NCBI GenBank assembly: GCA_024274695.1
Contig: JAJSAI010000019.1
Location: 29,346 to 93,345 of the forward strand
From: an archaeon
GTDB lineage: Archaea; B1Sed10-29; JAJSAI01
Direction: 5' to 3'
Length of the DNA stretch: 64,000 bases
Shown here: piece after piece, positions 21,145-43,072 of the stretch
Numbering within the stretch: position 1 is the stretch's first letter
How the letters are laid out: the number at the start of each line of letters is the position of its first letter
The notes under the pieces: generated by a model
Databases searched by the model: none
What the model was told of the DNA's origin: nothing
Seen by the model: only the letters and a program-made list of their open reading frames with translations
Made by a program: the position numbers and the translations under genes

Positions 21145-21572
21145 ACAGGATAGCCGTCGCGTCCCTCGGCAACCCCCTGAGAAGGGATGATGGGATTACA
21201 GAGGTTGCCTGCAGGATGATGGAAGAGAGAAACCGTTTTAAGGCAGACTACTACTACGGGGATCCCTTGAACTACCTGGGCAGGCTCGTTTCTTACGATC
21301 TCGTGTTCCTTGTGGACGCCGTGCTCTCAGAGGACCCTCCTGGGAGGGTCAAGCTCCTGGACATTGACTCTGTTTCAGGCCCTGGCCTTTCAACACACTC
21401 AGCGTCACTGGACCTCGTTAGAAGAATGCTTTCGGGAAAAAAAGTTTTCCTGATAGGCGTGACAGTCAGGGACACGGGATACGGGACCGGCCTGAGCCCG
21501 GGTGTGGATCCTCAGAGGATCGCTGAAGAAATAGAGAGGATCATACTCGCCCGCGCTTCCGTCAGGCATTGA
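21141..21572 (+). CDS. [NiFe]-hydrogenase maturation protease (HycI/HypD-type endopeptidase family)
   Basis: A 143-residue protease of the HybD/HycI family that trims the C-terminal extension of the [NiFe] hydrogenase large subunit after nickel insertion. Conserved nickel-sensing and core motifs are visible: GNPLRRDDG near residue 10, FLVDAVLSEDPPG, and STHSASLDLV with the conserved histidine. It converges with the hydrogenase operon ending at 21583, whose large subunit (22751-23908) carries a matching removable tail. This makes the substrate assignment strong. Confidence 0.92.
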   Translation: MNRIAVASLGNPLRRDDGITEVACRMMEERNRFKADYYYGDPLNYLGRLVSYDLVFLVDAVLSEDPPGRVKLLDIDSVSGPGLSTHSASLDLVRRMLSGKKVFLIGVTVRDTGYGTGLSPGVDPQRIAEEIERIILARASVRH

Positions 21573-24749: not shown

Positions 24750-25612
24750 GTCATCAGCCCCAGGATGGTCTCCTGCAGCCAGGGGAACACGCCTAAGAGT
24801 ATGACTGCTGCCGCCAGCGCGCCCGCGAACGCGAGGCGCGCTCTGTCTTCCTTTTTCCGTCTCCCCGGGCCTGCCAGCAGGTAGTACGCCACCTTGTAGT
24901 ACATTATGAACAGCATCATGGCAAGGAATATTCCAAGAAGTGTTATAAGCGGGTCCATCGCGAACCCTTTCGTGAAAAGAATCCACTCAGAGACGAAGAT
25001 GTTGAACCCGGGAAGTCCTGCCAGGGAAAGGCAGGCTATTACAGTGAACAGGTCCGCCCACCTGCTCACGAACCAGCTTCCCATAAGGTCGCTCAGCCTC
25101 TCCTTCCTACGCGCGACCATTCCAATTCCCAGGAACAAGAGGGATCCTGCGATCGTGTAGTCGAACACTTGTATCGTCTTCAAGAGGCCAGGGTCTGCTG
25201 ACGCGAACGCAACACTCAGATCAAGGGCCACGAAACCTATCTGCGCGAGGCTGCTTGCCGCCAGGAACCTGTACATCCGCGGCTCAAGGATACCGTACAC
25301 CGCAAGCCCTCCTATGCCGAGAGCGAACAGTATCGCGAGCTGCTTTGACCCTGGGAGCAGCCCGTGCTCGTAGTACCAGAGGAGAGAGCTTGACACCAGT
25401 ACAGCGGAGAGCATGTTAGCGTGCGCGAAAACAGAATAAGATCTTATTCTCGGGGACGCTATCACGATCCCCAGCGCCAGGACTCCTGCAGGAGAGTCCA
25501 TCAGGAGCAGGGCCGCAGCAGAAGAGGCGAGTATCACTACTGCCTCCTTTTTCCCGCGCGCCAGCAGGAGGCTTGCGACCGTGACCAGTCCTGTGAGGAA
25601 CGTCCAGAGCAT
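24746..25612 (-). CDS. short antiporter-like hydrogenase membrane subunit (EchA/NuoL-M-N type, divergent)
   Basis: A 288-residue multi-spanning protein, first gene of the hydrogenase operon. SLAQIGFVALDLS and GLPGFNIFVSEWILF mark it as a member of the NuoL/M/N/MrpD antiporter-like family. The usual size is 450-600 residues, so about a third is missing. Two normally charged ion-path positions look changed: the helix DYTIAGSLLFLGIGMV lacks the family lysine, and SEW stands where SKW is usual. It may be a reduced pump that still couples ion movement, or only an anchor. Confidence 0.8.
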   Translation of the reverse strand: MLWTFLTGLVTVASLLLARGKKEAVVILASSAAALLLMDSPAGVLALGIVIASPRIRSYSVFAHANMLSAVLVSSSLLWYYEHGLLPGSKQLAILFALGIGGLAVYGILEPRMYRFLAASSLAQIGFVALDLSVAFASADPGLLKTIQVFDYTIAGSLLFLGIGMVARRKERLSDLMGSWFVSRWADLFTVIACLSLAGLPGFNIFVSEWILFTKGFAMDPLITLLGIFLAMMLFIMYYKVAYYLLAGPGRRKKEDRARLAFAGALAAAVILLGVFPWLQETILGLMT

Positions 25613-38066: not shown

Positions 38067-41000
38067 TTAAACAAAGTCTGCAAGGCTCTTCTGCTTCTGT
38101 GCTTCCGCCCTCTTCTCCATTTCCTCGAGCTCGAAGAAGCTTTTCACGTCATTCTCTATCAGAATGAGCCTTTGCTTCAGGTACTCTGAGAGGTGATACT
38201 TGTTCGCGATGTTCTTTGACACGTCAAGGTACTTTACTATGCCTCCCTTGCTCACGGTCAGCACGAGCTTGCCCCCGCATTTGTAACACTTGCCGGACAA
38301 GGGCGCTCTCCTGTAGACCGTGTTGCAGTCAACGCACCTGAGGCCCTGCTGTCCAAAGGCCCTAAGGTTTCCCATCATGTCCCGCATGAAATGGAAGTTT
38401 ATTACCCTGCTCGCAAGGTCCCTTTCGTCCACCGCGAGAATCTTTTCCCCGAGGTCAAGCTGTTTTTCAACTTTTTCCGCCATTGTCTTGAGGGTTGTGT
38501 ACGCTGACCTCACGGGCCCCTCGTCTATCCTGTGGGTCTCGTGAGTGTACCCGAACCCGTGATACTGTTCCGGCGTTTCAAGCCTGTCCTTTACGGTTTC
38601 TATTTTCACGTCCGACGGGTTCAGGTTGTTGCACGCTGCCTCGTAGTACTCCAGGGGGTATTCTGAGACCACGTCCATCTCGTGGACCTGGTCGTCCACT
38701 TCCCGAGGGTCTATTTTTGTTGTGAGCACCATGGCCGCGTCCATGGTGCCCCCTCTCGAGCTCGGGAGGTACTTCTTGCTGAAGTTCAGCAGTGCATCCA
38801 GCAAGAGCATGAACGCGTCCTCGTCGCCGTCACAGTCCCTCCTGCACGCGGCGTGCATGTACGGGTGCGCGTAGGTTCCCCTGGCCCTGTGGAACCCGAT
38901 GATCCTGCCGAGAACTCCAACAGAAATGTGCGGCGCGAGGCAGATGACCAGATGTCCCACGAGATCTTCTGGTTTTTCCGCGTTGTAGTATCTTGGCAGT
39001 CCGTAGAATTTTTCCAGCAGATCGTCAATGAACTTTGCTGTGGCCAGCACGTACTCTGCCGAGTCTTCTGGTATTACAATGTCCTGTACGAACAGCTCGC
39101 ACACCTGTTCCGGGTCTGTGAGTGGGTTGCCGTCTTTGTCGTACAAGTACCCGAGCTCTCTTGCTTTTTCAACACTCAATCCTATCTCTCTTGGCTTGAA
39201 GTGGGTTAACGGCAGGTTCGTCGCGTCGAACCGTACCGTCCCGTCCCTGAACACGGTGACTCCGTGCTTTGCTCTAAGCATTCCCTTTTCCACGGGCTCG
39301 AAGAACTTGCCAGAGTTTATCAGGCCTTCTACGGCCTTTGTTTTTTCAGGGGTTTTCTCGCCAAGCGTTTCCTCCGCTTTCTTGAGAAGGGTTTTCAGGT
39401 CTAGCGCTATGTGGGCGTAGGGCAGCGCTCTTCCTCCGCAGTGCTTGCACACCTCTGTTTTTCCTTTTTTTCCGCACTTGGTGCACGTGTAAACCACTTC
39501 TGTGCGTGCCCCGCAGTCGTGGCAGTAGTAGCTTAGCGTTTCCTTGTCGCACTTGGGGCACTTGAGCCGCACGGCTTCCACTGATACGACTCCCTTTTCA
39601 GCGGCCTTTTTCAGGAGCCTTGTTTTTCCTCCGCTGTACTTTATTGGGAACAGCAGGTGTGGCGGCGGGCTCATTTTCCTGGGTTTTGCTTTTTCAGGCC
39701 TGCCCATCCTGGCTCCGACGAACGTTCCTCCTTTGTCCATGACCCTGAAACCGCACGCCTTGCTGATGGCTTCCAGGACATCATCTTCTTCCTCAAGAGC
39801 CCTTTCAAGGTCTTCCACGTGCTCAAGGCACAGTGTTTCTATCAGAGGGCCTGCTTCTTCTATTATTACCTTCCCTTCCCTGAGCTTGTGAGGAACCCCT
39901 ATCCTTTCAAGGATCCTTTTTTCTTCTGAGACCCTCACCTCGAGCACCCTGCTATCTTCTCCTGCTATTCCTTTCACCGTGCTAGTGCTTCCGGTGGCAA
40001 GCCATCTCGCGAGCTTCGCGAGCTCCTGTTTTTCAAGCAGGTTATAGTAGTACAAGTACCTGGGATGCATTGGAAGCCCTTTCCACGCGAGCTCTACTGC
40101 CTGTTCAGAGCTCACGTTCCACGGGTCCATCCTCGCTCCATTTTCCTCGCATATCTTCTGCCACCATTCCTCACAGAATCCTGGCTTCACGAGAGGGTGG
40201 TTAGCTTTCAGGAAGTCCCCGTGGCTCACGAGAAGATCGCCCAAGAAGAGTATTTCAACTATGTCGTCCTTTACCTCCATCGCCCTCGGCACGCTGTCAA
40301 CTCTTATGACGTCACCGTTCCTCAGGAGGACGGTCGGCCCTTCTATGGTGCTGACCGGGACCGTCACGCACCCTTTCCCAGGCCTTTCGAGCTTGAGCTG
40401 GGTTCCTATGGCCATGAACTCGTTCACGAGGTACATGGTCGCAGGGTCCACTCCCTTCGCGTTCAGGCCCGTGTTCCTGCTCCTGCCGTACCTTAGTCTG
40501 AACCCTCCTGGCCTGCTCGGGTAAGCGAATATGGGCCTGCCGCCCACTATGTCCGAGAGGTACTTGGTCACGGGCTTTATTTCCTTTTTCTCTCCTGTTT
40601 TTTTGGTTATCCTGACTATAGCCTCTATCCAGTCCCACCCGAGGTCATGTTTCTTGGAGTACTTCAAGAGCTTGGCCGCTTTCTGGGCTATCCCCTATGC
40701 GATGACGAGAGCCATCCCTCCCCTGATCCGGTTCGTTTCTATCCTCGGAAGGTTCTTGTATATGCTGACCTCCAGTTCTGAGGTGGGAGTGCCGCTCACG
40801 CACACCGGACAGTTCCTCACGATGTGCCTGACATCATCCTCTGGGGGATGGTACTGCAGTCTAGAAACGAGGTTGTGGTATATTTCTATCTCTTCAACGT
40901 ACCTTTCAACCTCTTCTTTTGAGGGCCTGTACTCCTGCAGCCCCATCTTCTTCCTCGTGTAGTCGGCCAGGATGACCGAGAGCGCGGCGGCTGTTCCTCC

Positions 41001-41447
41001 AGCGGACCGGATCGGTCCCGCGTAGTACACTTCCAGGCACTGGGTCCCGTCAGGATTGTCCAGGATCCTTGTTCCCGCGATCCCTTCTGTTGCGGCGGCT
41101 GGGACAGCTTCAGTGATTATCGCCACCCCTGTTCTTATGCACTGTTCTGCCAGCTCCTCCCTGGAGCTGAACTCTCCGAACTTCCCCTCAACTATCTCTT
41201 CTATTATCTTGAACGTCATCTTTTCTCTGTCCATTTCCTTGAGGAGTTCTCTTATCCTCTCTGCAACTCCCTTTGGCCCCACCAGCCCTTCCACTCTTGC
41301 GGCGAGGTCCGCGGCGGGAGGGATCTCAACCTCTGTTGTCACGTCCTTCCCTTTGGACCTGGCTAGCTTTGCCAGAGAGTAGCATTCTTCTGTCCTTTCA
41401 CGCATGTGCTGCCAGTACCACTCTGTTCTCTCGCGCTTTAGGCTCAT
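38067..41447 (-). CDS. polC: DNA polymerase D large subunit DP2, with an in-frame TAG
   Basis: The 1126-codon frame encodes the catalytic subunit of the archaeal replicative polymerase D but is broken by TAG at 40695-40697. Upstream it reads NRIRGGMALVIA, downstream GIAQKAAKLLKYSKK; the family has a glutamate (GAG) at the stop position. Both sides are otherwise intact. The catalytic centre is in CRRDCDGDEDAFMLLLDALL, several C-x2-C zinc pairs follow SVEAVRLKCPKCDK, and the C-terminus QKSLADFV looks like a PCNA-binding peptide. No intein is present. DP2 starts directly after the DP1 stop (TGA-ATG). If the stop is real, translation would need readthrough or a restart at TTG 40667. Confidence 0.92.
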
Positions 41448-42917
41448 TCAACTCCCCTTGTCAAAGCGGACTACTTTTATGTTCATCCTGTTCAGGTCTA
41501 TCACGGGAAGCTGGCAGGGGGTTGGCTTGTGCCCTTGTTTCTGCTGGTATGGTGTTATCTGCTGCCACGTGCCCCCGTTCACTGACACGACACCGTTCTG
41601 GTTTAGGTACGCGTTCTTGTGAATGTGCCCTGTCAGGATCATGTCCGGAAGCTCGTCTATCGTCATTGGGTCATCTTCTGTTGGTATGAGCGGCTTCCCG
41701 CCGTAGAACGGGTGCAGGTGTCTTGTCATGAGCACCTTCCTCAGGATCTTCTCAGGCTCGTTGTACGTGACAGTGTTCACGTTTGCCACGATGTCGTCAA
41801 AGCTGGTTCCGTGGTACAAGAGCGTTTTTATACCGTGGACATTCCACCAGCTCGGGCTGGTCCCGAAGTGAACGTTCCCGAGTCCCTTCAGTTCTGGCAC
41901 GAGCTCTGGAGGGATGCTGGGCTGAGGGTCAGCGGTCCTGACCCCGTCATGGTTTCCTGGTATTATTATCACGTGTACGTACTCTGGGATCTGGAGTATG
42001 TACTCCGAAAACTTCTTGTACTGTTCGAACAGGTCCTCGTACTCGAGTTCTTCCTCTTGTCCGGGGTATATCCCGATACCGTCTACAAGGTCGCCGGTTA
42101 TTATCACGTACTTTACTTTTTCCGCGATCCGCAGGTACTTTTCGTTGTCCGTGTCCCCGTTGAGCCAGGCGATCATCTTCTCAAAGTTTTTCTTCATGAA
42201 AAGCTTGCTTCCAACGTGAGGGTCGGAGATGACTGCTGCCATCACCTCTTCTCCTGCCGATGCAGGGTCCTTCTTAGGCACTCCCGGTTCTATTATTGAC
42301 TTTGCTATGAGCAGGCTCCCGTTGCCTTTACGCACGTCCACGGCGACGACCGTGTCGAGCAGAAGATCTTCTGCCAGCGCCATGAGCTGGTTATCGCTTT
42401 TCGGCACGAGCACGTTCGCCCGCCCGGTATCGTCCTCTAGGGTTATCATCAGGTGCCCGTTCTTCGTTCTCCTCTTCTCGTAGACGAGTCCTGCTATTCT
42501 GAGTTCTCTTTCTTTTCTTTTCCTCACATCGGTTATTTTCGTGATGCTCCCTCTTCTCCTGAGGATCTTGACCGTTTTCTCGTACCTGCTCCTGAAGTAC
42601 GCCACGAAGTCTTCAACATTCCCTCTGCTCAGGACTTCAGCGTCCCTTATCTTTTCCACCCTCGCCTCAACTTCTCTGGCGAGTGGCCTGAAAGAAGAAG
42701 GTCTTCTGACAACCACCTTCTTTTCTTCTTGGACGATCTTGGTCTTCTCCTTTTCCTGCAGGTCCTCGGGGGTCACGAAAAGTTTTCCGGAGCACTTCTC
42801 GGTTATCCTGTTGACGAGTTCTTCGGGGTTTTCAGATGATAGAACGAGCTTGACTGTTTCAGGAGCGAGGAGGAATCCTTTTTCTTCCAGGATCCTTATT
42901 GCCTCGCTTCCGTCCAT
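41448..42917 (-). CDS. polB: DNA polymerase D small subunit DP1
   Basis: A 489-residue DP1, the proofreading exonuclease and scaffold of polymerase D. The N-terminal helical domain is followed by an OB fold (ELRIAGLVYEKRRTKNGHLM) and an Mre11-like phosphoesterase with all metal motifs: SDPHVGSKLF, GDLVDGIG, PGNHDGVR, LYHGTSFD and LTGHIHKN. ATG 42917 is preferred, giving MDGSEAIRILEEKG; an open frame continues upstream to 43025 but would run through a GC-rich hairpin. It is immediately followed by DP2, the standard operon pair. Confidence 0.95.
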   Translation of the reverse strand: MDGSEAIRILEEKGFLLAPETVKLVLSSENPEELVNRITEKCSGKLFVTPEDLQEKEKTKIVQEEKKVVVRRPSSFRPLAREVEARVEKIRDAEVLSRGNVEDFVAYFRSRYEKTVKILRRRGSITKITDVRKRKERELRIAGLVYEKRRTKNGHLMITLEDDTGRANVLVPKSDNQLMALAEDLLLDTVVAVDVRKGNGSLLIAKSIIEPGVPKKDPASAGEEVMAAVISDPHVGSKLFMKKNFEKMIAWLNGDTDNEKYLRIAEKVKYVIITGDLVDGIGIYPGQEEELEYEDLFEQYKKFSEYILQIPEYVHVIIIPGNHDGVRTADPQPSIPPELVPELKGLGNVHFGTSPSWWNVHGIKTLLYHGTSFDDIVANVNTVTYNEPEKILRKVLMTRHLHPFYGGKPLIPTEDDPMTIDELPDMILTGHIHKNAYLNQNGVVSVNGGTWQQITPYQQKQGHKPTPCQLPVIDLNRMNIKVVRFDKGS

Positions 42918-42948
42918 ACTACACACTGTCCAATGTCTTTTTGGGATA

Positions 42949-42978
42949 GGGCCCGGGAGGAGAGGGGCTCCCAGGCCC
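42949..42978 (-). promoter_or_regulatory. GC-rich hairpin in the DP1 leader
   Basis: Arms 42949-42959 and 42968-42978 form an 11-bp stem with one C-A mismatch and an eight-base loop. The 155-base gap (42918-43072) also has a TATA-like sequence at about 43028-43036 on the minus strand, which would give DP1 a leader of about 85 bases containing this hairpin. It could instead help end the tyrS transcript, but no T-run follows it. Confidence 0.4.
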
Positions 42979-43072
42979 AAAATCAGCTGGAACTGGGTGT
43001 AACCTCTGAACAAAAAGTTTCTCACAGGTTGTATATTAACTTTTCCTCCGCGCCGGGCCTCTTGTCCTGTTT

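Follow-up and report, generated by a model that had tools for sequence, protein, structure and literature searches.

The gene for DP2 (polC), the large catalytic subunit of DNA polymerase D (PolD), is interrupted by an in-frame TAG at codon 251 in the window analyzed here, a 64,000-nucleotide stretch of a draft archaeal genome. This stop probably reflects an error in the sequencing or the consensus, or else a non-functional allele that is recent or carried by a minority, rather than a working recoding or gene-splitting device. Under this explanation, a single base would have been substituted in the consensus, with GAG changed to TAG as the simplest case, either through such an error or because a metagenome-style assembly picked up a nonsense allele that is recent or present in a minority. 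The functioning population would then most likely keep a glutamate codon and make DP2 as a single 1126-residue chain. Apart from the TAG, both gene and genome look normal.

An in-frame TAG within a single-copy DP2 gene

A sequence-only reading of the window had placed a TAG inside DP2, with 250 codons before it and 875 after, and inspection of the open reading frames (ORFs) confirmed this arrangement (Table 1). That reading had named an error, a nonsense allele, readthrough, and a split as possible causes, with no choice among them; the present analysis favors the first two. The upstream ORF on the minus strand ends at the TAG, and the same frame then continues to the stop at 38067; the codons around the interruption read CTC GTC ATC GCA TAG GGG ATA GCC CAG AAA. 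Two profiles match above their cut-offs, PF03833 in the N-terminal region (E = 5e-109) and PF24844 in the central region (E = 5.3e-134), and the PDB matches are 6hms_B, 6t8h_B, 5ijl_A, and 3o59_X. Because the PF03833 match spans the TAG and the whole frame is 46–58% identical to its relatives, the frame is not a chance alignment of ORFs. DP2 is recognized, inteins aside, as one uninterrupted reading frame, and here that frame is broken at codon 251; the break is a property of this copy, and the homology is not in doubt.

The genome searched comprises 825 kb on 32 contigs and is 91% complete. Within it PF03833 and PF24844 each match at one place, indicating that DP2 is single copy, and no second DP2 gene was found with either profile. 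The adjoining ORF, read by eye rather than through a family search, looks like DP1.

Table 1. Features of the DP2 locus (positions are those of the window).
Feature	Position	Strand	Remarks
DP2 (polC), large catalytic subunit of DNA polymerase D	38067..41447	-	1126 codons including the TAG
DP2 upstream open part	40695..41447	-	250 codons; includes the KH-like motif PIRSAGG
In-frame TAG at DP2 codon 251, replacing an invariant glutamate	40695..40697	-	ORF reading and alignment
TTG at codon 261, first conventional start 3' of the TAG	40665..40667	-	the 18 nt upstream lack a Shine-Dalgarno-like sequence
DP2 downstream open part	38067..40694	-	875 codons; CDGDEDA motif and zinc-finger cysteines
DP1-like ORF (small PolD subunit, exonuclease), intact, adjoins DP2	41448..43025	-	sequence read by eye

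Conservation of the interrupted gene

The alignment of related DP2 proteins for which the sequence-only reading had called shows every relative intact at the TAG site. In this alignment of 30 sequences, including the DP2 studied here, residue 251 is Glu in all 29 relatives, as had been claimed from the sequence, and the same residue is Glu in the DP2 of Pyrococcus abyssi (6hms_B; PMC6355029). The further claim that GAG became TAG by one change holds as a single-base step, while the ancestral GAG codon itself is something that we infer, since the compared genomes include none of the same genus or family. The nearest relatives belong to the same order, and their DP2 proteins are 52–58% identical to this one.

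A search of 101 genomes gave matches in 98, including this genome. Among the matches listed in the other 97 there was no internal stop in DP2, the one internal stop encountered lying in a spurious 18.6-bit match elsewhere, and the N-terminal region of DP2 contained no stop in any of the 10 genomes of a second set. Aside from the TAG, 138 columns are invariant in the other sequences, and the present DP2 departs at only one of them, compared with 0 to 16 departures for each of the other 29. Neither side of the stop thus shows pseudogene-like decay. Together, the invariant glutamate, the single undecayed copy, and the absence of internal stops from the relatives listed favor an artefact or a non-functional allele. 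The same explanation is favored by a study of prokaryotic in-frame stops, many of which are short-lived and probably deleterious (Belinky et al., 2021; PMC7918605).

Quality of the assembly

Assembly quality was judged from a sample of 318,836 bases that includes the window and makes up 39% of the genome. The sample contains 40 same-frame junctions of coding-like ORFs, counting that of DP2, and the 20 inspected were mostly picked for coding signal past the stop. In almost every case a start codon occurs no more than a few codons away, and the junction resembles an ordinary gene boundary; one (C14, minus strand, 24728) looks antisense. The DP2 TAG was the only mid-domain stop found in the sample, which again favors an artefact or non-functional allele, and a simple coding-potential scan of the same bases revealed no frameshift-like junctions.

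A random base change in this genome produces a stop in about 4.3% of cases, and the expected number of nonsense errors in the sampled coding codons is therefore about 1.1 at a consensus error rate of 1e-4 and 0.11 at 1e-5. With about one such error expected near 1e-4, an isolated nonsense base is compatible with consensus error, and it is equally compatible with a minority or recent allele. Two considerations weigh against pure error. First, the error rate of a short-read consensus with good coverage may lie far below 1e-4, which would make such an error less expected. Second, it is a coincidence that a single error should strike so important a gene, although noticing the stop is what led to the choice of this gene. 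A literature search on premature stops arising from consensus errors in metagenome-assembled genomes found no report.

Readthrough of the UAG

If the UAG were real and fixed, a near-cognate tRNA could decode it often enough to yield full-length DP2, possibly limiting the amount of polymerase. The fully preserved downstream frame and the freedom of the sampled assembly from frameshifts or other damage are consistent with such decoding, and apparent readthrough at in-frame stops has been reported across prokaryotes (PMC7918605), but several observations make it unlikely. First, programmed readthrough would be expected to leave the stop conserved across relatives, and the stop occurs in none of the relatives listed, the nearest being at order level (52–58% identity). 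Second, none of the 45 tRNA-like matches at E ≤ 10 (39 at E ≤ 0.001) in the 91%-complete genome carries a CUA anticodon, as read with ARAGORN and, for intron-bearing and weak matches, by eye, a procedure by which disrupted tRNA genes can be missed. Third, the release factor aRF1 is intact, with its NIKS and GGQ motifs, and TAG terminates 28 of the 235 coding-like ORFs of at least 150 codons in the 319-kb sample; it is thus an ordinary terminator and not a general sense codon, in agreement with the sequence-only reading. Finally, the 100 nt 3' of the stop form no stable RNA structure and fold no better than shuffled sequences (z = +1.39).

It is very unlikely that the UAG is fixed in the lineage, that the replicase is made only through near-cognate readthrough, and that the stop codon sets the replicase dose. 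A literature search on stop codon readthrough in DPANN found no report. Should the base prove real and fixed, this archaeon could make its replicase only by reading through a stop codon, a dependence of which we know no description.

Split gene, inactivation, and recoding

A genuine division of DP2 into residues 1–250 and a second chain, restarted at the TTG or further down, is highly improbable. A TTG does lie 10 codons past the stop, but a chain beginning at codon 261 would lack E251 (Glu in the 29 relatives) and K256 (invariant in the 30-sequence alignment), as well as the near-invariant G252, Q255, A257, and K259. Moreover, the TTG has no Shine-Dalgarno-like sequence, the first in-frame ATG downstream of the TAG is codon 338, and the relatives from the 101-genome search show no DP2 division in this region. 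The restart at TTG that had been suggested from the sequence is thus disfavored by the invariant residues it would drop and by the lack of a visible ribosome-binding site.

Real inactivation, with DP2 a fresh pseudogene and the genome replicated by PolB, is also hard to credit. Some other archaea use PolB as their main replicase, and the presence of a complete-looking PolB in this genome (a 783-codon open frame on contig C9) leaves some room for a loss of PolD. Against this stand the intact DP1-like ORF next door and the lack of decay in the remainder of DP2, and both PolD genes look maintained. In Thermococcus kodakarensis, furthermore, PolD is reported to be essential and PolB dispensable (PMC13136892), which argues against inactivation and favors an artefact or non-functional allele.

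The searches for pylS, a UAG-reading tRNA, and a second polC that the sequence-only reading had proposed were carried out, and none of the three was found. The PylS N-terminal domain is absent from the 91%-complete genome, and the C-terminal model gives only sub-threshold matches, at 40 and 22 bits where the cut-off is 178. E. coli and most control genomes give weak matches of this kind as well; we take those seen here to be class II synthetases such as PheRS. A reassigned UAG would be expected to recur in conserved genes and to be rare as a terminator, and the 319-kb sample holds a single in-gene TAG. Pyrrolysine insertion or other systematic recoding, to which only the UAG within an intact frame points, has a negligible probability given the missing PylS domain, the absence of a CUA tRNA from the matches, and the lack of any other in-gene TAG in the sample.

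Unusual tRNA genes in the same genome

Several tRNA genes of this genome appear interrupted or rearranged. On contig C26 (about 47144–46995, minus strand; 17144–16995 in locus L085), a tRNA-Ser(CGA) gene has its halves in reversed order, the 3' half first and the 5' half following after a few bases. The outer ends of the gene pair over 11 bases, and the joined halves fold into a cloverleaf that ARAGORN calls tRNA-Ser(CGA), suggesting that the gene is likely circularly permuted. Thermofilum pendens is known to have permuted tRNA genes (PMC3218864); the literature matching a search on permuted tRNA in DPANN concerns other RNAs.

Apparently interrupted tRNA genes are present on C22 (26049–26160, plus; about 10440–10207, minus), C21 (about 30087–29970, minus), C19 (about 24756–24900, plus), and C12 (near 21400–21560, minus). 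They appear to bear introns, some of them away from the usual anticodon position, in the D arm of Lys(TTT) and in the T arm or acceptor of the His(GTG)-like gene, and standard programs for tRNA detection overlook or mislabel them. Identities assigned by eye are Leu(TAA) on C19, Arg(CCT) on C12, Arg(GCG) and Lys(TTT) on C22, His(GTG)-like on C21, and Ser(CGA) on C26. Weak or misnamed tRNA matches were considered as candidate CUA tRNAs and rejected by eye as ordinary intron-bearing or permuted tRNAs. Copies of a shared element, GGGACAACCTACGGTTTT, lie next to or within tRNA genes and close to contig ends (L085 at 17494 and 16888, both minus; L077 at 11164, plus; L074 at 13186, minus); the element is possibly a repeat or an integrated-element junction.

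Comparison with known systems

One base of a draft genome can mimic recoding, and the interrupted DP2 resembles known systems in part. As in pyrrolysine-decoding archaea, a UAG lies inside an open frame; unlike in those archaea, neither PylS nor tRNA(CUA) was found here, DP2 is not a known pyrrolysine enzyme, and the site is a conserved glutamate. The cases of Belinky et al. (2021; PMC7918605) are similar in that a single, probably short-lived stop sits in an otherwise conserved frame, but those authors compared orthologues of related species, whereas the present case is one genome without a close relative. Finally, the protein shares with archaeal D-family DP2 (PDB 6hms, 6t8h, 5ijl, and 3o59) full-length homology, the KH-like motif, the catalytic motif, and the zinc-finger cysteines, and differs from it in the in-frame TAG at conserved glutamate 251.
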